IMG/VR virus record: IMGVR_UViG_3300047171_000019
Span: 1 to 36,908 of that record
DNA: 36,908 nt
DNA from: a virus
Strand: one strand, 5' to 3'
Both the position numbers and the translations under genes were made by a program. The notes beneath the pieces were generated by a model. That model did not search any database. It had not been told where the DNA came from and saw nothing but the letters and a program-made list of their open reading frames with translations. This document shows, piece after piece, positions 2,779-22,391 of the stretch. The stretch's first letter is position 1; every line of letters starts with the position of its first letter.

Positions 2779-2999
2779 GCATGGATTGTTTTGATGAACA
2801 CTTGAAGATTGTTGAGGAAAAGAAAGACATATATACATACCTCAATATTTTAAAGAATGAAAATATAGCTTTAAGGCAAGAGATAGCCACCTTGAAAGCG
2901 CTTAGGGCGGCTGATGATGTTGCTTATCAGCGCATGAAAGAAGTTGCATTCAATCAATGCAAAATAGAACTACCAAGTGGAGATATTAGAGAGATATGA
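2775..2999 (+). CDS. hypothetical coiled-coil protein, 74 aa
   Basis: Start 2775 is set by the ATGA overlap with the preceding stop and a GGAAGAG-type site before it. Residues about 8-50 form a charged helix with leucine/isoleucine spacing (YLNILKNENIALRQEIATLK), likely a coiled coil, so it may dimerise or partner another small protein. It ends in another ATGA overlap at 2996-2999. Function unknown. Confidence 0.7.
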   Translation: MSMDCFDEHLKIVEEKKDIYTYLNILKNENIALRQEIATLKALRAADDVAYQRMKEVAFNQCKIELPSGDIREI

Positions 3000-3301
3000 A
3001 AAACCCGCACTACGGCTGCACTGTGGTAGCTAAAGACTACCTCGATCTTATACCCGATTATTCCGTTAATGGAAAACCTCTGGTGGTGTTTGAGATGCCC
3101 ACAGATACCGCCTACCTGTCTAAAGACCAAGTCAAAGACGTAATTGCGCAACTTCAATCATGGATCGATACCGGTGAGTGGATTAAGCCGAAGAAGAAAT
3201 ATTGCTGTGTTCCAAAAGATAAAAGCTGGGCATTCTCAATTGTAGAAGACCCAAGCGTTTGGAGAAATAAAGAAGATTATGAAAGGGAATTATATACTTG
3301 A
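2996..3301 (+). pseudogene. phage gene truncated by the IS insertion
   Basis: The frame starts at an ATGA overlap and runs 101 codons, but only the first 96 belong to the original gene. The last five residues (RELYT) and the stop are encoded by the left end of the insertion sequence. Removing 3285-4845 plus one target copy joins codon 97 to 4854 and continues the frame for 14 residues (IYELTEENRVKFDE) to TGA 4895-4897, giving about 110 aa. That stop overlaps the start of the gene at 4890, like every other junction in the operon. The protein has a mixed alpha/beta look (VVFEMPTDTAYLSKDQV), with an amphipathic helix near residues 43-58. Function unknown. The truncated product may still be made. 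Confidence 0.8.
3277..3284. repeat. left 8-bp target-site duplication
   Basis: TTATGAAA directly abuts the left terminal inverted repeat and is repeated exactly at 4846-4853 beyond the right one. Eight base pairs is the usual duplication length of the IS1595 family. Confidence 0.9.
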
Positions 3302-3306
3302 CTCCC
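3285..3306 (+). repeat. IS left terminal inverted repeat
   Basis: The 22 bases begin GGGAATTATATACTT and end TCCC. They match the reverse complement of 4824-4845 at 19 positions, with mismatches at repeat positions 5, 16 and 18. The GGGA tip and TCCC end also make each repeat a partial palindrome. Confidence 0.88.
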
Positions 3307-3326
3307 GCACTAATTTGTGTAATACT
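3298..3326 (+). promoter_or_regulatory. candidate inward IS promoter, -35 in the inverted repeat
   Basis: TTGACT (3298-3303) lies within and at the inner edge of the left inverted repeat. AATACT (3321-3326) follows after exactly 17 bases. The right repeat has TTCATT at the equivalent place and so lacks this -35. A hairpin between ACTCCCGCAC (3301-3310) and GTGGGAGT (3333-3340) overlaps the predicted 5' leader. The promoter would drive the passenger ORFs and transposase. Confidence 0.4.
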
Positions 3327-3361
3327 AGTGATGTGGGAGTTAAATATAAGGAGTTTTGAAC

Positions 3362-3580
3362 ATGCTAAGAACCAACAATAATCCAATGTCCTCAATACCT
3401 TCTAGTGATTTACCAGCTATCAAAGACGCTATTAAATCACTATCTGAAACTATTACATATACCCATCGTGCAAGCAACTATGGGGGCAGCTATTGTATTT
3501 TTCGCCGCAATGGTCAGTTAATCGCTTCTTATGACACATTGCCAACAACTGAATATATTTTAGAAGATGAGGCAGCATGA
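3362..3580 (+). CDS. IS passenger protein A, 72 aa
   Basis: AAGGAG about eight bases upstream supports ATG 3362. An in-frame TTG six bases earlier is less likely. The 72-aa product has a polar N-terminus, a helix (LPAIKDAIKSLSETI, about residues 17-31), then a beta-rich segment with a FRRNGQLIASYDTLP pattern and an acidic tail. No catalytic motif is recognised. It lies wholly inside the insertion sequence, first of a coupled chain with the second passenger ORF and transposase, so it is cargo or an accessory to transposition. Function unknown. Confidence 0.65.
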   Translation: MLRTNNNPMSSIPSSDLPAIKDAIKSLSETITYTHRASNYGGSYCIFRRNGQLIASYDTLPTTEYILEDEAA

Positions 3581-3795
3581 ATAACCAAGTTATTGAAAAA
3601 CCACCATTATCAACAACTAAATGTGCTCATCCAAGGTGTCAAGAGTTTATTTACAGAGATACTTTGGACAAAGATATTGGCTATGCTTTGCCTGAAATGA
3701 TTGGGCGTTATTTCTGTTCAAAACTATGCGCCTTAGAAGTATTAGGTAATAAGATTTACTTCAATATGGCTCAAAAAGGAGTGAGATATGACTGA
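3577..3795 (+). CDS. IS passenger protein B, Cys4 zinc-finger-like, 72 aa
   Basis: It starts in an ATGA overlap with passenger A and overlaps the transposase start by eight bases. Two Cys pairs, C-A-H-P-R-C (near residues 16-21) and C-S-K-L-C (near 48-52), are spaced like a treble-clef or zinc-ribbon finger. The C-terminus is slightly basic. It may bind DNA or the transposase and regulate or assist transposition, but this is only inference from motif and position. Confidence 0.65.
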   Translation: MNNQVIEKPPLSTTKCAHPRCQEFIYRDTLDKDIGYALPEMIGRYFCSKLCALEVLGNKIYFNMAQKGVRYD

Positions 3796-4702
3796 AACTA
3801 TTAGTACATTCCAACTATTGGAGCTATTTCCTAATGCGGAAGCAGCTAGGATTTATCTTGAAGGCAGATTATGGAAAGACGGCTGTAAATGCCCTACTTG
3901 TAAAAGCGGTGAACGTATAACCGTTAGGAAAGGCGGCTTTTACCGATGTAATGCCTGTCAGCTTGATTTTACAGTCAGAACAGGTACGATATTTGAACGC
4001 TCACATATCCCATTACATAAATGGGTTTACACCATGTATATCTTAGTGACTGCCCGAAAAGGCATAAGCTCATTGCAATTAGCTAAAGAGATTGGCGTTA
4101 CTCAAAAGTCTGCCTGGTTCATGCTTTATAGACTTAGAGAAGCATGTGGTTCAGATATCGGCAAATTAAGCGGCACTATTGAGATTGATGAGACATTTGT
4201 TGGCGGCAAAGAAATCAATAAACATGCTCATAAGAAGCTAAAAGCTGGTAGAGGCGCAGTAGGCAAGCAATCAGTAATAGGCTTGAGACAAAGAGGCGGC
4301 AATACCAAGGGCTTTGTGGTTGATACGACTAATCTAGGCACTGTTCAAAACACAATATTCAATAACATCAAGATTGGTTCAACAGTATTTACTGACGAAC
4401 ATCCGTCTTATGGGCGTACTGGTGGTTTATTCTTCAATCACAGCACTGTTAATCATAGTGCTGGCCAGTATGTTCTTGGTAATGTTCACACCAATAGCAT
4501 TGAGAGCTTCTGGGCATTATTAAAGCGGGGAATTGTTGGTGTATATCATCACACCAGCCCGAAGCACTTAAACCGATATGTTGATGAATTTGCTTTTCGG
4601 CTTAACTTCGGTAATGTCAAACGGACAACAATAGAACGGCTAGATAGCTTTATGGATGCTGTAGCCGGTAAGCGTATAACTTACCAGGAGCTAATCGCAT
4701 GA
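3788..4702 (+). CDS. tnp: IS1595/ISXO2-family transposase
   Basis: The 304-aa protein is full length for the family. An N-terminal zinc ribbon has C35-x2-C38 and C54-x2-C57. A helix-turn-helix follows at about residues 94-118 (LQLAKEIGVTQKSAW). The DDE-type (RNase H fold) domain shows D134 in IEIDETFVGG, D203 in FTDEHPSY, and the N236/E239 region of HTNSIESFW, the third acidic site of this family. It cuts and joins the element ends and makes 8-bp target duplications, consistent with the TTATGAAA repeats. The start overlaps the end of passenger B and the stop overlaps the next basic ORF. No frameshift or missing key residue is visible. Confidence 0.93.
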   Translation: MTETISTFQLLELFPNAEAARIYLEGRLWKDGCKCPTCKSGERITVRKGGFYRCNACQLDFTVRTGTIFERSHIPLHKWVYTMYILVTARKGISSLQLAKEIGVTQKSAWFMLYRLREACGSDIGKLSGTIEIDETFVGGKEINKHAHKKLKAGRGAVGKQSVIGLRQRGGNTKGFVVDTTNLGTVQNTIFNNIKIGSTVFTDEHPSYGRTGGLFFNHSTVNHSAGQYVLGNVHTNSIESFWALLKRGIVGVYHHTSPKHLNRYVDEFAFRLNFGNVKRTTIERLDSFMDAVAGKRITYQELIA

Positions 4703-4815
4703 AAGATGTGCCTGAAATATTGAATAGCATTACTGACATTGTGCTGAACTATAGACCGAAATCTAAACGTAAGAAGCCAAGAAAACGCAAAATAAAGAGG
4801 AAAAATAAGAAATGA
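4699..4815 (+). CDS. small highly basic protein inside the IS, 38 aa
   Basis: It starts in an ATGA overlap with the transposase stop and ends nine bases before the right inverted repeat. The N-terminal half is an amphipathic helix (VPEILNSITDIVLNY). The C-terminal half is almost all Lys/Arg (KRKKPRKRKIKRKNKK), suggesting nucleic-acid binding. A following 17-codon frame (4812-4865) runs through the inverted repeat into phage DNA and is probably not a gene. Confidence 0.55.
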   Translation: MKDVPEILNSITDIVLNYRPKSKRKKPRKRKIKRKNKK

Positions 4816-4823
4816 ACACTAAA

Positions 4824-4845
4824 GGGAATGAAGTATATAAGTCCC
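4824..4845 (-). repeat. IS right terminal inverted repeat
   Basis: Read leftward, it begins GGGACTTATATACTT and matches the left repeat at 19 of 22 positions. It abuts the right target duplication at 4846. Confidence 0.88.
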
Positions 4846-4853
4846 TTATGAAA
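4846..4853. repeat. right 8-bp target-site duplication
   Basis: TTATGAAA is identical to 3277-3284. The bases after it (4854-4897) are the displaced 3' end of the gene broken at 3284. Confidence 0.9.
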
Positions 4854-4889
4854 TCTATGAATTAACCGAAGAGAATCGGGTGAAGTTCG

Positions 4890-5081
4890 ATGAGTGATGC
4901 GCAAATTACTTATAGGCACTACGAAAGACTGCGAGTCCTGGCTGCGAAATTGCTTGGTTTGCCTAAGGTGGTAGAGGCGGCTTCTCTTGAATCTGTCGTG
5001 ACAAACATTGCGGTAGAGGCTGTACTAGCGCTAGAAGAATTTTGTTTGTCGCATTACACCGAGGATGAGCTCAATGAGTAA
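4890..5081 (+). CDS. hypothetical helical protein, 63 aa
   Basis: The 63-residue product is mostly helical (YERLRVLAAKLLGLPKVVEAA), acidic at the C-terminus and lacks motifs. Before the insertion, its start would have overlapped the stop of the gene broken at 3284 by eight bases. Now it follows the displaced 3' fragment, so its coupled translation is probably weakened and it relies on its own weak GGTGAAG site. Function unknown. Confidence 0.7.
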   Translation: MSDAQITYRHYERLRVLAAKLLGLPKVVEAASLESVVTNIAVEAVLALEEFCLSHYTEDELNE

Positions 5082-11026: not shown

Positions 11027-14000
11027 CTAATAAATTCCTGAGCGAGACTTAAGAGTCTCTAAGCCTTCATCGTCTTTTCCTAACTTTAACCCGGTTTCAG
11101 CTGTCCTGTAAAGAGAAACGTCAGGCGGGGCACCTAGCCTTAGCATCCCTCTAAGTGCGGCACCTTGAGCACCGTCAAATGTTTTTAGCTCGGGGGATTT
11201 CAAAGGTTTGGCGTTACCCAGTCCATAAGGGCTCGGGATGCCAACCTCGGTGCTGCCGCTCATTACATCAGGCAAGTAATAAGCTGCTGCTGACAACGAT
11301 TGCAAAGGAATTGGTCCTAGCATCGGATACAGCATAGATATATCATTGATAATTGCTCGCAAGGCTTTCTGCGCCTTAAGAGCCTCGGGGTCATATTTGT
11401 CTTCCAGAAATATATGCGGGTTCTCATATGCATTTTCGGCGACGCTGGCTAATTGGCTTCTTACTTTAGGTAGGTCACCCATAATTTCTAATATGTTGTC
11501 TAAGCCAGGAGCTTCTGCGCCCATAAATGGAAATAGGAATGGGTCCCAATCTACCTTGCGAGACATGTCGCCCAAAAGCTGTTGCCCCATGCTGGTCTGA
11601 TCCATTAAAGCCTGCATCTTGGCTTGGTCTTCTGGCTGAAATAACCAGCCCATTATTTGCAGTATCTTTGGCTCGGCAGCGTGTCCGCCAAATTGCCATA
11701 GCACCGCCAAGCTTGCGGCTATCCATTTCAAATTGCCTTGAGTGACATTATTTACCAATAGTCGGGCATATCTTTCAGGCTGGCTGACAAACTTAACCAC
11801 GTACCCCATAGGCGAGCGTGACATCGGTCCTTTGGTAATACTTAAAGGGTCATGCCCTAGAGTGTCGACTAGGTCGACTGATAATTGAATAAATGCATTT
11901 GCTGTGGTGTCTTGCTTGAGTTGTCCAGCCATAAGCTTTTGTGCAAAGTCTTCCCATTTGCGTAAGTTCTGTGCACGCATTTCTCTTGGATGTGTGTCGA
12001 AGTAATGTTTCATGCTACCTAAAGACAGAATGCGAGCTTGCAAATTCTCTATCGATAACGGTTTCATTTTTGTAGAAGCCTCTTGCAAAGCTTCGGAGCG
12101 AGGACCAGATATGACTAGCTTGTCTACCAATCCTCGCAATACTGGATTTGTCCCGTAGGCTTTATATCCTTGCGCAGTCGCAACCGGACCGATTTTTAAA
12201 GGACCAGATATCGCCACATCGAAGAAGTTGGCAATAAATTGTTGAGGGTTTAAAGAGAACCAGGCTTTAGAAGCATTGGCAAAGAGTTTTGCCAAATGAG
12301 TATCTGCCAGGCTGTTTGATTTACCGGGAGAGACTGCGTTATGTATGAAGTCAACAGCATCTTTGACAGGCTTTAAGTAGGCTTGGTCGGCTGGCGTTTT
12401 GCCCTCGTATACCTTGTTAAACTCCTTAGAGTAATTCGCAACAAAGCCTTTGAAAGTCTTGCCCATATCGTGTATTTCTTTGGCATATTTTTGACCCTGC
12501 GGTGAAAGTAATTTGCCGTCTATTTCTTTAAAAGCTGCCCGCACTAAATACTCGTGGTCGTCAGGTGCTAGAAATAAAGCTTCCACTATTTTGCCCTGAA
12601 GTTGTTTTAATTGACCACCTAAGCAAGCGTCTGGATGAGTAAAAGGATTGATACCCATTATCTTGTCTGCAAAATGTGCCAGGTCTCTAGTGTTTGCCCA
12701 CGCACGCATATAGAAAAATCCGGGGCTTTTGGTCAGTCTTTGTGCGGCAACATGCCCGTATTTAGCAAGCAAAATTGTGCCCAATAAAGCCATACTCGCA
12801 TTGCCGAAGAAACGATGTCTTTCTTGTGGGTCTTCGTCGTCTGCTGCCTTGGCAGGATTATCTAACGAAGGCAAGCCCAGTACAGCTGCCAAGCCAATCT
12901 TCTCGACTGCTGGGTGCAATGCTCCGATTCTTTTTAAAGTAGCGAGTGCTTCTTTGCCTGACTGCTGTGTTAATTTTTCTACACCACCGACTTTATAAGC
13001 TAACTCTTTTACAAGATTCTCTTCGTTCGCCCGAATTGCTTTGTCTATTTGGTCTAGCTCTTGTGCAAAGACGCCATGCAAATAAGTTATGTGGCTCTTG
13101 TGTTGAGTGCCGACTGCAAACTCTGTGGTACCTTTTCGTGTATACGGATGACTTATCGAGTACTTAACCCAAACACGTGCTAACTTATCTCCTTTTTCCT
13201 GTAGCTCTTTCTCTGCATTCTCGAATGCTGGTAAGAAGTGCTTGGTTAACGCTGTGTACTGCTTACTCGCTGCTTTTAAGTTATTGGCTGATTCAACAAA
13301 CTGCTTGTATGCTTTACCGAAAGTAGGAGCTAAGTCTTTTGGTTCTTCTGCAATATGCGCTCTATTGGCGATACCATACAGGTGCTTTGTATTAGGAATA
13401 TTGAACAATTCTTCAGGCGTGTTTAGTCTTTGCAGAGCCTCGTCTAATGCTGTTATTTGTTGACGTAATTCGGCATGAGCTTTCTTAGGATTGGCGTTTA
13501 ATTGAGCAACTAATTCGTCTCTTAATTCTTTAGTTTTGGCTTTAACTGATTGCTGTTGCTTTAAATATAGCTCCGACTTTGCTTTTGCAAGTTTGTCTGC
13601 AGCCCCAGAAGTAAGCCTTACTTTTTCTTCGGCTTCGACTTTAGCTTTTTGTGCGGCGGTTTTCGCAAGCGACATTGCATGCTTAGCATAGACTTCGGTT
13701 TCGTTCTCGAAGTGTTTTTTAAAGGCTAAGGCTTCGCTGATTGCTTCTACGCCTTCTTTTAATTCGCCGAATGTTTTGGGGCTTAATTCGTGCTGCAATT
13801 CATGTAAAGGCTTAGCATACTCAATTGCTTCGTAACCCTTGTCACGCTTGGCTAATCTATAAGGACCGGAAGCTTCTGTTTCGGCTGTAGTCAAACCTTT
13901 GCCTTGCAATGCAGCCATGTCTTGTTTGATTTCGGCTTGATGACCTTTTACTTTATCTAAAGCAGCGCGTTGAGCCGTCTGCAAAGAACTCTTAGGCTCT

Positions 14001-14986
14001 TGGTCTTTTAGGTGATTCCAAAGTCTATTTAATTGGTCGTGCTCAAAACGTTGAGTCTCTTTAGCAAGCTTCTCTTTCATTTTTGCTCTGTATGCTTCTA
14101 TTGGCTCACCGGCTGACTCTGAAGCGGCGCTGCCAATTTTACCAAGCTTTTGTAAAGTCTGGCTTTTATCTTTTGCGCCTTTTAAGACTTTGCCAATACC
14201 AGCACCAACTGCGCCCAGTGCTGCACTAGTAGCACCGCCCATAGCGGCAGATTGAGCAAGTTGAGCCGGGTCTAAATGTCCAGTTTTTTGTAATTGCTCT
14301 TTTGCGTTTTCAGAGCCGCCAAAATATGCGCCTTGTGCAAACATGCCACCAAGTTTGGCACCAGCTCCGCCAGGGAGTAATAAACCTTCTGCTACATTGC
14401 CGCCTAATTCGCCTACTGCTTTACCTGCTTGGTAAGCCGGGTCGTCTTTCGTTTCTTTGTCTACGCCTTGCTCGTACGCTTGTTGCATATCTGGGGCAGC
14501 CTCTTGAGGAATGCCGTATTTTTGAGCTGCCAATCTAAAAGGGGTTTGCATACCAGCAACTGCAGTATCTGCGGTACCTAATGCGCCACCGCCTAACCCT
14601 TGAGCGAATTTACCGACAGGAGCAATCATCTTGTCCCATAAATTAGGCTGCGGTGGAGGTGGAGCTGTTGGCTCGGCAACCGAAACATCGTATTTTTGTA
14701 TTGGCGGCACAGAAGTATCGTGTCCAAAACTAGCACCATGCGCTTGTTCAAAGGAGCTAATAAAAGGGTGTGTTCCTCTCAGTGGAGCAACTGGAGCTGA
14801 CATAGGCGCAGCAGGCAAAGTTTGCATTGGCGCTGTCGGAGCGGGTCCGGGCGCGGCTTGGGCTGTGCCTTGCAGGGACTGAGCCTGTGCAGCAGCAGGT
14901 AATGTTGGCGCTGCGCTAGCTGCCGGAGCAGCAGGAGCGCTTGCCGCTTCCATTGCATTGATAAAGTCTTGAGTGCTGTCTGGCAT
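11027..14986 (-). CDS. large internal virion/DNA-ejection protein candidate, T7 gp16-like
   Basis: At 1319 aa it almost equals T7 gp16 (1318 aa) and holds the same last place in a 188/603/1319-aa series. The N-terminus (about 1-120) is Ala/Pro-rich. Residues about 130-290 have Gly/Ala-rich, membrane-active-looking segments (VGKFAQGLGGGALG, GLLLPGGAGAKLGGMFAQ). About 290-660 is long charged coiled coil. The C-terminal half is mixed helical with hydrophobic patches (WIAASLAVLWQFGG). No lytic transglycosylase motif is evident at the N-terminus, unlike T7 gp16. It probably forms part of the ejectosome or capsid core. Assignment is by size, order and composition. Confidence 0.7.
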   Translation of the reverse strand: MPDSTQDFINAMEAASAPAAPAASAAPTLPAAAQAQSLQGTAQAAPGPAPTAPMQTLPAAPMSAPVAPLRGTHPFISSFEQAHGASFGHDTSVPPIQKYDVSVAEPTAPPPPQPNLWDKMIAPVGKFAQGLGGGALGTADTAVAGMQTPFRLAAQKYGIPQEAAPDMQQAYEQGVDKETKDDPAYQAGKAVGELGGNVAEGLLLPGGAGAKLGGMFAQGAYFGGSENAKEQLQKTGHLDPAQLAQSAAMGGATSAALGAVGAGIGKVLKGAKDKSQTLQKLGKIGSAASESAGEPIEAYRAKMKEKLAKETQRFEHDQLNRLWNHLKDQEPKSSLQTAQRAALDKVKGHQAEIKQDMAALQGKGLTTAETEASGPYRLAKRDKGYEAIEYAKPLHELQHELSPKTFGELKEGVEAISEALAFKKHFENETEVYAKHAMSLAKTAAQKAKVEAEEKVRLTSGAADKLAKAKSELYLKQQQSVKAKTKELRDELVAQLNANPKKAHAELRQQITALDEALQRLNTPEELFNIPNTKHLYGIANRAHIAEEPKDLAPTFGKAYKQFVESANNLKAASKQYTALTKHFLPAFENAEKELQEKGDKLARVWVKYSISHPYTRKGTTEFAVGTQHKSHITYLHGVFAQELDQIDKAIRANEENLVKELAYKVGGVEKLTQQSGKEALATLKRIGALHPAVEKIGLAAVLGLPSLDNPAKAADDEDPQERHRFFGNASMALLGTILLAKYGHVAAQRLTKSPGFFYMRAWANTRDLAHFADKIMGINPFTHPDACLGGQLKQLQGKIVEALFLAPDDHEYLVRAAFKEIDGKLLSPQGQKYAKEIHDMGKTFKGFVANYSKEFNKVYEGKTPADQAYLKPVKDAVDFIHNAVSPGKSNSLADTHLAKLFANASKAWFSLNPQQFIANFFDVAISGPLKIGPVATAQGYKAYGTNPVLRGLVDKLVISGPRSEALQEASTKMKPLSIENLQARILSLGSMKHYFDTHPREMRAQNLRKWEDFAQKLMAGQLKQDTTANAFIQLSVDLVDTLGHDPLSITKGPMSRSPMGYVVKFVSQPERYARLLVNNVTQGNLKWIAASLAVLWQFGGHAAEPKILQIMGWLFQPEDQAKMQALMDQTSMGQQLLGDMSRKVDWDPFLFPFMGAEAPGLDNILEIMGDLPKVRSQLASVAENAYENPHIFLEDKYDPEALKAQKALRAIINDISMLYPMLGPIPLQSLSAAAYYLPDVMSGSTEVGIPSPYGLGNAKPLKSPELKTFDGAQGAALRGMLRLGAPPDVSLYRTAETGLKLGKDDEGLETLKSRSGIY

Positions 14987-18046: not shown

Positions 18047-19333
18047 TCAGTTGTTGATTACGGCGCTAAGTCCGTTAGCGATAGCAGCGTAAGTATTTAA
18101 GCCGTAAGTAATCGTTGCACCGTACGTAGACTCCATTCTTTGTAGGTAAGTTATGCCAACTCCCGCTGAACCTGCGTAACTGCAAGCAGCTGTAACGGCT
18201 ACGCCAGCCGAATATGCGCTGGTATAGCTGGAATATGCAGTATTGCTGTTAACGCCGATGCCCACATAGCTACCTATGCTACCGCCAGAAATAGCGCAAA
18301 AACAATCAGCTATATAGGCGCCGTTTGCTATTGTTTGCAAGAAACTAACCTTGCCCACACCATCCGTAGTATTAGCATTGGCTGCTCTAGGCGTAGTAGA
18401 ACCGTATGTCCAAGTCGGCGTTGTATCTGCACAAATCATCGCCCTAGGAACAGCGTTGTATAGATTGCTCACGCCACGAGTAGAGGTGTTGTCTATCGCT
18501 TGATTAGAGGCATTGATAAATATCGAGCCTGCCAAAAGACTGGTTGCGTCTCCACTCTTCGTTAATCGTCCGTCTTGAGTGCCTCTTGTTGGAGGCGTAG
18601 TTGTATTAGTCCAAATAACAGTACTTAAAGCCACAGTAGTGCCAGAGGCGCTTTTTACATAGACATCGTAAACGCTGTTAACAGTCAGGCTCACTAATGA
18701 CAAAGATACTTGAGCAAAAGTTTGGGTAACTTCAGAAGAGCCGTTATAAAGTGTGATTTGGTTGCCGTAAGCCGGACCAAAAAATAAAGTGCTTGTCGAG
18801 CCGCTGTCAGAAAAAGGTGTTCCTGAAACTAAATAAAGCCTGCCGCCGTTGACCATCGCCGAAGTAAAGCCAGAAAGAGTGCCGCCGTTTAAGTTAAGCG
18901 TACCTCCTGAGGATAGAGTGATGTTGCTAAAGTTCTGGAGCGTGCCAGCATTGCCGTCAAAAGTACCAGCTCCGCCAGCAGGAGTTAAAATCTGCAAGGT
19001 CGTCGCCGCTGACCGTTTAAGCTCTATATCTGGTGCGGTGCTACCGCCAGGACCGAACTGTAGCCCTTTGTCGGTTGTCATTTGGACTTGTGCTTGTGTG
19101 TCTGTCGTTAAGCCGCTAGACCAAGTGATTTGCCCTGTAGTGCTTTTATTAAATGCCGCGCTGCCTGGATTTAAACCTAGCTTGCTCAAAGCAATTGCTG
19201 CAGAAGAAGAAATATTAGTGTTGTCTATCGCACCGTTAACCACACTGGTTACAGCTGTAAAGTTGCTGTTAACTTGCGGCGCTTGGGCGATCGTGTTGTT
19301 GGTAAATGTAAATGGGATAGATATAAATGACAT
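18047..19333 (-). CDS. tail fibre/spike-like protein, 428 aa
   Basis: The N-terminus (FTFTNNTIAQAPQVNSNFTAV, then a NTNISSSAAIALSKL pattern) is typical of the head-binding start of phage fibre proteins. The rest is Gly/Ser/Thr/Asn-rich beta-type sequence without Lys clusters, ending in a Tyr/Gly/Ala-rich tip. It probably binds the host receptor. Its start overlaps the nozzle-gene stop by one base (TAATG). No chaperone or peptidase domain is seen. Confidence 0.75.
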   Translation of the reverse strand: MSFISIPFTFTNNTIAQAPQVNSNFTAVTSVVNGAIDNTNISSSAAIALSKLGLNPGSAAFNKSTTGQITWSSGLTTDTQAQVQMTTDKGLQFGPGGSTAPDIELKRSAATTLQILTPAGGAGTFDGNAGTLQNFSNITLSSGGTLNLNGGTLSGFTSAMVNGGRLYLVSGTPFSDSGSTSTLFFGPAYGNQITLYNGSSEVTQTFAQVSLSLVSLTVNSVYDVYVKSASGTTVALSTVIWTNTTTPPTRGTQDGRLTKSGDATSLLAGSIFINASNQAIDNTSTRGVSNLYNAVPRAMICADTTPTWTYGSTTPRAANANTTDGVGKVSFLQTIANGAYIADCFCAISGGSIGSYVGIGVNSNTAYSSYTSAYSAGVAVTAACSYAGSAGVGITYLQRMESTYGATITYGLNTYAAIANGLSAVINN

Positions 19334-21594
19334 TAGGGATTACTCGGTATGTTGGTGAATTTATTAGGACTATTACTTACAAAATTACCTTGAGAGCCGT
19401 ATGGCAAATTTCCTACAAACGTAGTCGCCCTTTCACTATAGCCTATGTTTACTCTTACTACACGAAAATCAAAAGCGCCTGCGCTCCAAGCTATTTTAAA
19501 TTGACAAGCGCCGCTTCTTAAAGCAAAGGGTTGACCGGCAGGAACCCATTTACTACCTGGTGAGAGATAGGTAATTCTCGACCTCATTGGCGTAGTCTCG
19601 TAAGGCTGCGAGATGGTCGAATAACCACCGCCCCAAGCTGCTACACCCCATAAAGACACGCCCCATATCATGGCGCCGTATGCTGTCGTTGCCCCGTAAG
19701 CAGCGTCGTTCAATATCATAGGCACGCCAGTCAATGTCTGGTTGTCTCCTCTGGGCATTGCATAAGGAGTGACTGTGTATTGAGTGCCTACGTTGTAAGC
19801 AAACAGAGTGAATACATCAAATTGTTTTTGTCTTTCTGGCTTACCGCCGTGTACATAAGGAGTAGTAAAGTATGCGGATATATTACTGCCGTTATCATTT
19901 AGACCTTGTAGTCCTAATTGATATACACCGTTTATACCGGGCGAATTACTTGCAACAAATACGGATGGCAATCCATTAGTGCCAGGAGCAATCATGTAAG
20001 GACCGGATGGCCAGCCGTTAAAATACCACCAGGCGCCCGTATCCCATTTATAGGCAAGCTGTGTATTATTGCCGAAGTCTATTAGCGAGTATTGAAATTC
20101 TTCGTTATAGGTCGAGTTAAATTGTTGATTGCCGTTAGTTTGCAAAGCATTCTGCACAAGATTATAAACAAGCGTTTTTATATTCTTGCTAGATATAAAT
20201 GCCTCAACGCCGTTGCTTAGCCATATTTGAGCATCGCTGCCCAAAAACTGTACTGCGCCTAAGCCTTCCTGGGTCGGTATATAAACAGCGCTTGGAGAAG
20301 TAAGCGCACCAACAGGACAAGATATGGCTTCTTCTGTTAGCTGTCCCAATGCGCCTGTATAGATAAAGATATTGGTTTTGGTTTTGCCAACCATAAAGGA
20401 CTTGCTTGGCTGAACGCCGACTTGCGATATACCCATTACCAATGCAAATGTACAAACAGCACCGTCATTAGAACCAACTTCCTGAATATTATTTCCATAC
20501 CAAGTTGTTGGGTCATTAACATCCGACCACATAAAAGCACCGTTTTGAGGCACTCCATTTGGTGACGGGTCTACTGCTACTAAAGAACCGTTGAAAGGTA
20601 TTAGGAATCTGCAAGCTGGAGGTTGAATTAAAATGCTACTTAGCGAGGGTCCGGTATAAGTTATTTGCGCTGTAGTATTGCTAATAATTATCTGGTTATT
20701 AATTGTGCCGATACTGGCTGTAAATATAGGTTCGCTAGTTACCCAATTAGTGCCTGTGCCTGTTAATTGCATAATGACACCAGAAGAGCTGTTAATTATA
20801 TTTTGCGGCGATATAGCAAGGCTACTCGTGCCTGTGTTTACGGCAATATTACCCATGCCATTGGTGCTGGGGTCGGTGATTACTACTTGCTGGGAAGTGC
20901 TTGGCAGAATAATATTTATCGTTGCCGTATTAGCAGAAGTAACCGTTTGGGTTGTAATGGTGCCTGCTGAGGTAGTGAATATTGGGAATCCCGGAGTGCC
21001 TGGGGTCCAAGCTGTGCCTGCTCCGGTTAAAGTAATTGTTGCTGTAGATCCGATCACTCCTGTCGTTTGAGACAATGTCAGACTTGTGACGTTAGGAGTG
21101 ATTTCAAAAGCTGTCGTGTTACCGCTGCTGGGGTCAGTGATTGTTACTTGTTGGAAGCCGGAATAAGGAACGGCTTGTTCGGTAATGCCGTCATATTGTC
21201 TAAGGGGTACTGTCGGGGTTGCCCAATAAAGCTTTGCGTTGAGTTGGCAGTGTGCGATATTTTGTCCTGCGACGTAGACATTACTAGTAATAAGTACAGG
21301 ACTCCCCGAAACAACATCATATAGATTACCTATGCACCAAACCATCATATGCTGTATGCCTGCAGCATCCGTAAAAGAATAGTCGCCATCTGCTGAGCCG
21401 GGCAAAGAGGACCAAAGACTGTAACCGCCTCTGAATCTCAATTGACCTTGCCATGCAAATACATTCAAAGAATCAGGTGTTTGATTCGCCGAAATAGCTA
21501 ACGGCCCTACATCAGTAGCAAGCCCGCCAGACATATCACTTAGAGCTATCTGCATCCTTGAGTCGTCTAGTGTCCCTGGTCTAGATACAACCAT
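19333..21594 (-). CDS. tail nozzle protein (T7 gp12-like), with two Ig-like repeats
   Basis: ATG 21594 is chosen because it follows the adaptor stop by two bases. A start at 21663 would overlap it deeply. The N-terminus GGLATDVGPLAISANQTPDS followed by LNVFAWQGQLRFRGGYSLW matches the usual opening of podovirus nozzle beta-propellers. Residues about 148-234 and 235-318 are tandem copies beginning QQVTITDPSS and QQVVITDPST, each with a TGxGTxW motif, an Ig/IPT-like insert. The remainder is beta-rich propeller-like. It would close the DNA channel at the tail tip. Position next to the adaptor and fibre supports this. Confidence 0.72.
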   Translation of the reverse strand: MVVSRPGTLDDSRMQIALSDMSGGLATDVGPLAISANQTPDSLNVFAWQGQLRFRGGYSLWSSLPGSADGDYSFTDAAGIQHMMVWCIGNLYDVVSGSPVLITSNVYVAGQNIAHCQLNAKLYWATPTVPLRQYDGITEQAVPYSGFQQVTITDPSSGNTTAFEITPNVTSLTLSQTTGVIGSTATITLTGAGTAWTPGTPGFPIFTTSAGTITTQTVTSANTATINIILPSTSQQVVITDPSTNGMGNIAVNTGTSSLAISPQNIINSSSGVIMQLTGTGTNWVTSEPIFTASIGTINNQIIISNTTAQITYTGPSLSSILIQPPACRFLIPFNGSLVAVDPSPNGVPQNGAFMWSDVNDPTTWYGNNIQEVGSNDGAVCTFALVMGISQVGVQPSKSFMVGKTKTNIFIYTGALGQLTEEAISCPVGALTSPSAVYIPTQEGLGAVQFLGSDAQIWLSNGVEAFISSKNIKTLVYNLVQNALQTNGNQQFNSTYNEEFQYSLIDFGNNTQLAYKWDTGAWWYFNGWPSGPYMIAPGTNGLPSVFVASNSPGINGVYQLGLQGLNDNGSNISAYFTTPYVHGGKPERQKQFDVFTLFAYNVGTQYTVTPYAMPRGDNQTLTGVPMILNDAAYGATTAYGAMIWGVSLWGVAAWGGGYSTISQPYETTPMRSRITYLSPGSKWVPAGQPFALRSGACQFKIAWSAGAFDFRVVRVNIGYSERATTFVGNLPYGSQGNFVSNSPNKFTNIPSNP

Positions 21595-21596
21595 TT

Positions 21597-22391
21597 CTAG
21601 ATACCTGTATCCATTGGGAACGGATCGACAACCACGACTGAAGAGGAAGCCGACTGGCGCCAAGGCTGGACAATCGTACCGTAACGAGCAGGTGAGTCAG
21701 ATTGCCTGTGTGTAGAGGCGTACATTCTGTAGTCTTCGCAAGTCTTTTCAAACTGCATAGAATACATTTGCGCTTCTGAATGAGCATTCTCAATGCGCTT
21801 ACAACGAGCTATTGCATAGGCTGCCCAACCTTCCATAAATCTTTCCGGTATCTCGCAAATATCGTCAGGGTCAGACATATAGCCGTGGAAAGCGCTGTAC
21901 CAAACATGGATAACGCTAGGATTAGGAGGTATTGGCCACACGCCAATAACTTCTCTGTAGCCAGCTCCGCCAGGAACAACCGGGTTCAGTGGTATTTGTT
22001 GAATATCAGAAGTACTTGGTACTTGGGGGGTAATAGATTTGGTGCCTGTCTTGGTGTAATACCATCTAGGTATAGAGCCTACGATGGCACCTTGTTGCAA
22101 CTCTTTCCAATCTTTGTATTCCAAGTCAAATAATTGACCCATGAAATACTTGACCGCTTTTACTTGGTCAACATTGGCAGGCAAGAAAGCCTCTTGTGAG
22201 CCTACAGTAGTACTGTTGCTTAGGCTTAAAGTGATATTGGCAAAGCCTGTTAGGGTCTGTCCAATAGAACACATTTTTTTCGCAGAGTAATTTAGGTCTT
22301 TGATTATCTGGTAATCAGACCAATTGTATTGTTCAGGTTCGCCTATTTCAGACCGGACGTAATAGACTCCGTCTCCTAGTGTTAGTGCCAT
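21597..22391 (-). CDS. head-tail adaptor (T7 gp11-like), 264 aa
   Basis: The protein opens with a helical segment (YYVRSEIGEPEQYNWSDYQI, with LNYSAKKMC after it), followed by a beta-rich middle and a C-terminal helix (FMEGWAAYAIARCKRIENAH). This layout is usual in podovirus adaptor/tail-tube A proteins. Its position between the capsid cluster and nozzle gene is the expected one. It would join the portal ring to the nozzle. Confidence 0.75.
   Translation of the reverse strand: MALTLGDGVYYVRSEIGEPEQYNWSDYQIIKDLNYSAKKMCSIGQTLTGFANITLSLSNSTTVGSQEAFLPANVDQVKAVKYFMGQLFDLEYKDWKELQQGAIVGSIPRWYYTKTGTKSITPQVPSTSDIQQIPLNPVVPGGAGYREVIGVWPIPPNPSVIHVWYSAFHGYMSDPDDICEIPERFMEGWAAYAIARCKRIENAHSEAQMYSMQFEKTCEDYRMYASTHRQSDSPARYGTIVQPWRQSASSSVVVVDPFPMDTGI

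Follow-up and report, generated by a model that had tools for sequence, protein, structure and literature searches.

An IS1595-family transposon with cargo genes in a phage contig and its probable place in a phage-borne lineage carrying counter-restriction genes

The DNA analysed here (the window) is a linear IMG/VR contig of 36,908 bp, itself a fragment. It contains an element that is very probably an autonomous cargo-carrying transposon of the IS1595 family (tIS), belonging to a lineage that resides chiefly in tailed phages and conveys counter-restriction genes. Phages are regarded as seldom containing insertion sequences, and virulent phages as containing them very seldom (PMC8136500). In the open-access literature searched we found neither IS1595 cargo elements reported from phages nor a phage-dwelling lineage that combines an additional basic protein (ORF4) with exchangeable cargo and with counter-restriction cassettes devoid of a transposase. 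The chemistry of the element is ordinary; its biology is new. No concrete vehicle has so far been available for the patchily distributed methyltransferases of phages, and the lineage may explain how counter-restriction genes pass between viruses, by a route that becomes directly testable.

Anatomy of the element and its insertion site

A first-pass annotation of this DNA had described a complete IS1595-family element with both ends resolved and an intact transposase inside a tailed-phage genome, and on each of these points the analysis bears it out. The 22-bp terminal inverted repeats (TIRs) match at 19 positions, differ at three, and are bordered by an exact 8-bp target duplication (Table 1). 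A de novo search of the window for such a duplication next to TIRs returned the 3285-3306/4824-4845 pair and nothing else, and the TIR pattern (≤3 mismatches) occurs exactly twice in the 36.9 kb, with a chance mean of 0.01. Such TIRs and 8-bp duplication agree with an IS1595-family element. The TIRs enclose four ORFs on one strand, with every adjacent pair overlapping in the manner of an operon, and two of these, ORF1 and ORF2, are non-transposition genes as in a tIS. Mobile insertion cassettes, described for IS231, consist of TIRs and a duplication around a gene without a transposase; the window element is not of this kind, as an intact transposase lies inside it.

Table 1. Coordinates of the element, its signals and the interrupted phage gene in the window
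Feature	Position	Strand	Remarks
Disrupted phage gene, 5' part	2996..3301	+	101 aa, now running into the TIR
Target duplication, left copy	3277..3284	.	TTATGAAA; sequence
Left TIR	3285..3306	+	GGGAATTATATACTTGACTCCC; same 22-mer in many phage elements
Candidate sigma-70 promoter	3298..3326	+	TTGACT-17-AATACT, TG before second hexamer; -35 inside TIR
Inverted copy of TIR inner end	3335..3342	+	GGGAGTTA; just past the promoter
Cargo ORF1	3362..3580	+	72 aa
Cargo ORF2	3577..3795	+	72 aa, Cys-containing; overlaps ORF1 (ATGA)
Transposase	3788..4702	+	304 aa; zinc ribbon, HTH, RNase H-like DDE domain
ORF4	4699..4815	+	38-aa basic protein; overlaps transposase stop (ATGA)
Right TIR	4824..4845	-	reverse complement GGGACTTATATACTTCATTCCC; sequence
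Target duplication, right copy	4846..4853	.	TTATGAAA; sequence
Disrupted phage gene, 3' remnant	4854..4897	+	from joined flanks

The family assignment follows the transposase, for which the Pfam domains DDE_Tnp_IS1595 (PF12762, 2.7e-42) and Zn_ribbon_IS1595 (PF12760, 3.5e-7) were both detected over cut-off, as in DDE enzymes of the ISXO2/IS1595 type that bear a zinc ribbon. Amongst 38 aligned sequences D134, D203 and E239 are invariant and K246 nearly so, and these four are taken as the catalytic residues. A structural model built from the same alignment (pLDDT 84) gave retroviral integrases and DDE transposases as the best fold matches.

The signals at the left end are less certain. The promoter is a suggestive candidate only, such patterns being not above chance frequency in the region. 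The inverted site GGGAGTTA is a possible extra transposase site or operator; a comparable subterminal site with ≤1 mismatch occurs in 12 of 79 elements against 2.7 expected, a weak signal limited to a subset. Family, profile and homologue searches returned no family and no relative for ORF1. For ORF2 they gave no confident family and a PDB search nothing credible; its one relative (43 % identity) comes from a viral contig, where no such element surrounds it, consistent with cargo drawn from the phage gene pool.

The carrier encodes a portal protein (phrog_156, 2.1e-24) and terminase-like proteins (phrog_5989/24361), in keeping with a tailed phage. Two large ORFs on the minus strand, at 11027-14986 (1319 aa) and 19333-21663 (776 aa), had no PHROG match. 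When the flanks of the element were rejoined in silico, a frame of 110 aa was restored. The element has entered this small gene close to its 3' end and swaps the last ~14 residues for 5, a mild and tolerable lesion. A relative of the window phage with an empty site was sought and none was found; the single relative, L082 (portal 83 %), did not align over the insertion site. Comparison of L035 with L077 gave 71 % identity across the joined site, a weak case in which homology starts only ~50 bp to the left of the junction.

Distribution and movement of the lineage

When IMG/VR was scanned with the window transposase, about 58 matches were near full length with 57-75 % identity, and shortened transposases reached 80 %; in 84,980 genomes the same query found about 6 of near-full length in the 57-75 % range. 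No match of ≥60 % identity was found in 50,697 records of cultured phages or in 72,556 plasmid records. The lineage homologues, plentiful in contigs of uncultivated phages and rare in bacterial genomes, carry the same TIR as the window element. Large ORFs flanking them encode terminases of several families, portals, capsid proteins, head-tail proteins, integrases and polymerases. Four members from metagenome-assembled genomes (MAGs; L083, L084, L085 and L087) have chromosome-like flanks, L086 adjoins a gene resembling a head maturation protease, and L088 adjoins phage-family genes. An exclusive restriction of the lineage to phages was rejected, given the chromosomal context of some MAG members.

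These distributions bear on two other accounts. An ordinary bacterial IS1595 element might have jumped recently from a host chromosome into the phage; the family is common in bacteria (408 relatives of the window transposase in genomes) and a few lineage members do sit on chromosomes. However, the closest relative, L002, lies in another viral contig (75 % identity, grouping support 100/97), relatives at ≥57 % identity are almost all in viral contigs, and ORF4 was not detected among relatives at 37-48 %, all of which leaves a recent jump from a chromosome unlikely. Alternatively the residence in phages might be an artefact, with fragments of plasmids or chromosomes mistaken for viral sequence: IMG/VR may include misclassified contigs, its records are mostly fragments, and 23 of the 50 carrier records had no terminase detectable with three profiles. 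This seems very improbable: the same profiles matched a terminase in the other 27 records, portal, capsid, head-tail and polymerase genes adjoin the elements, and plasmids gave no match at the ≥60 % level. A lineage residing mainly in phages is the preferred reading.

Insertions were collected by requiring the TIR consensus and an 8-bp duplication with 7-8 of 8 positions matching, which yielded 112 distinct cases; the true TIR consensus returned 169 raw pairs and shuffled versions of it 0. The GC content of the duplications is 17 % compared with 58 % in their surroundings, and A or T is nearly invariant at positions 2 and 7. A chimeric assembly as the source of the window element is unlikely, since the same ends recur with differing 8-bp duplications in about 110 independent insertions.

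On sequence comparison the family moves, since near-identical elements recur amid unrelated phage sequence and with duplications that differ. One element of 1561 bp, with 2-5 differences, is present in L193, L231 and L247, whose flanks are unrelated and whose duplications are TAATATAT, TAAATTTC and CATACCAA respectively; differing duplications are also seen in the pairs L165/L237 (94 %) and L210/L214 (91 %). Autonomous transposition within phages is inferred from these relatives. A domesticated, immobile element retained for its small genes would agree with the presence of mostly one copy per phage and with the three TIR mismatches in the window element, whose insertion cannot be dated. The exact duplication, the intact catalytic residues and the near-identical relatives at different sites nevertheless speak against domestication, for which we see little probability. 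The first-pass annotation had also suggested that the insertion may be recent or tolerated. An isolated insertion sequence merely tolerated by the phage is not supported: the nearest relatives are elements of other phages that have matching ends, an additional gene as hallmark, and cargo that can be exchanged.

ORF4, cargo and comparison with known elements

ORF4 marks the phage-borne lineage as judged from its occurrence. A protein with the consensus LDxIADxVLxYRPKPKxKxAKKRKR was found in almost all members, the window element included, and in none of the relatives at 37-48 % identity. Of 56 full-length cases, 41 have it ≤15 nt from the end of the transposase gene, usually with an ATGA overlap; a PDB search with it returned nothing credible. 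Several transposases have lost the catalytic domain and kept the zinc-ribbon/HTH part, which is fused in frame to ORF4 in L054, L058, L070 and L074 and joined in frame to the extreme transposase C-terminus in L057, L059 and L078. In-frame-deleted transposases were seen either fused to ORF4 or retaining the overlap of ORF4 with the transposase stop. Against full-length relatives the shortened forms have dN/dS of 0.04-0.17, values which include the time before the deletion. The derivatives joining the two hint that ORF4 cooperates with the DNA-binding part of the transposase; that shortened DNA-binding derivatives serve as repressors is speculation.

Six elements (L014, L016, L017, L018, L019 and L023) are 84-98 % alike at both ends: over their first 82-100 bp, which run from the TIR as far as the -10 element of a promoter, TTGACA-17-TACTAT, and over their last ~1066 bp (84-91 %), which begin with the start codon of the transposase and finish with the right TIR. 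Between these conserved ends the similarity is zero. The simplest reading is that the cargo in the stretch from promoter to transposase has been replaced repeatedly. Other members have their cargo downstream of the transposase, either ahead of ORF4 or behind it.

Judged by PHROG matches in elements with a full or shortened transposase, cargo of recognised function is mostly devoted to DNA modification or anti-restriction. It includes C5 methyltransferases (L006, L007, L027, L046, L078, L188), N6/N4 methyltransferases (L010, L289), another DNA methyltransferase family (L184), Mom-like (L031) and Lar-like (L042) proteins and PAPS reductases (L012, L281). ORF1 and ORF2 of the window matched no modification gene, which counts against the main reading; they are nominated, with other cargo lacking a known function, as candidate counter-defence genes.

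Methyltransferase cargo was considered as a feature unique to phages and rejected, since 5 of 36 bacterial cousin elements resemble the methyltransferases of the phage cassettes described below, and for this reason the habit of carrying methyltransferases may predate the phage lineage. In the bacterial IS1595 cousins L097, L129, L149, L094 and L095 (~2.7-3.4 kb) it is the DNA between the TIRs that shows the resemblance.

Known IS1595 cargo elements (tIS) such as tISCpe8 and MTnSag1/tISSag10 have ~25-bp TIRs and passenger genes (PMC5704250). They share with the present lineage the IS1595 DDE transposase, short target duplications and passenger genes. However, their passengers are resistance or mobilisation genes, their hosts Firmicutes and their means of transfer plasmids or conjugation, whereas the lineage is carried by phages, has largely anti-restriction cargo and possesses ORF4 as an extra hallmark gene. 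ISApl4, of the IS1016 type, likewise belongs to the IS1595 family and makes AT-rich 8-bp duplications (PMC12561309), but it is 712 bp long with 14-bp TIRs, encodes a transposase only and occurs in many chromosomal copies. On size and gene content an IS1016-type assignment of the window element is improbable. The same cargo proteins are known as orphan methyltransferases and Mom/Lar-type anti-restriction genes of phages (e.g. PMC4190342); here, in contrast, they are bounded by transposon ends and duplications, which constitute a physical route of spread.

Transposase-less cassettes and a proposed mechanism

Two TIR-pattern scans identified 33 distinct cassettes without a transposase, many of them filled by one gene, and 16 of the 33 carry a DNA-modification gene. 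Methyltransferases are present in L167, L185, L190, L191, L210, L214, L226, L249, L295, L300, L313, L338 and L361, and Mom-like proteins in a second L185 cassette, L284 and L346. L167 and L185, for example, with no transposase between their TIRs, are mobile insertion cassettes in the IS231 sense; the plan is the same, but the present cassettes sit in phages, have IS1595-type TIRs and often bear a DNA-modification gene. Methyltransferases were found in 14 of 22 cassettes with an ORF of ≥150 aa against about 9 of 128 flanking phage ORFs of that size, a clear excess (Fisher p about 9e-9, the background count being approximate). A family defined by its TIRs makes mobile counter-restriction cassettes in phages findable from their ends alone. 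A point against the main reading is that only 1 of 22 cassette records also contains a full-length lineage transposase, and its TIRs differ from those of the cassette at the inner end.

A working mechanism can be proposed. The transposase would bind both TIRs via its zinc-ribbon/HTH part, and DDE chemistry would insert the element into AT-rich 8-bp targets. A left-end promoter, in the window overlapping the TIR, would drive a single operon of cargo, transposase and ORF4, the last presumably a partner of the transposase. The DNA between promoter and transposase start forms a cargo slot whose contents are replaced over time, and one-gene cassettes with the same TIRs would probably be mobilised in trans. 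Since the recognisable cargo is mostly of the DNA-modification or anti-restriction kind, the element probably offsets the cost of being packaged by disseminating counter-restriction genes from phage to phage.

A more far-reaching form of this proposal, to which we give slightly less than an even chance, is a phage-to-phage delivery system: IS1595-derived autonomous elements and transposase-less one-gene cassettes would shuttle methyltransferases, Mom-like proteins' genes and other counter-restriction genes from one tailed phage to another, unrelated one, in a swappable slot under the element's promoter, ORF4 would be required for transposition or regulate it, and the deletion products combining the DNA-binding part with ORF4 would be repressors.

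Some individual cassettes deserve mention. Beyond modification genes and a QueD-like protein in L282, the only named PHROG function among the scanned cassette genes was a TnpB-type transposase, lying inside IS1595-type TIRs with an 8-bp duplication (L254:2001-3178). The QueD-like protein (L282:9791-10945) is accompanied by a second protein, from a PHROG family with no named function, which might belong to a 7-deazaguanine pathway. In one record a methyltransferase cassette (L214:732-1800) occurs together with a complete autonomous element of 2124 bp (L378, duplication CTTTGGAG), the TIRs differing at their inner ends. One phage contig (L185:1658-2462 and 11961-12588) holds a methyltransferase and a Mom-like cassette with separate duplications. 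In L323:477-1956 two cassettes stand in tandem and have one 8-bp site in common, in the arrangement CTATATTG-cassette-CTATATTG-cassette-CTATATTG.
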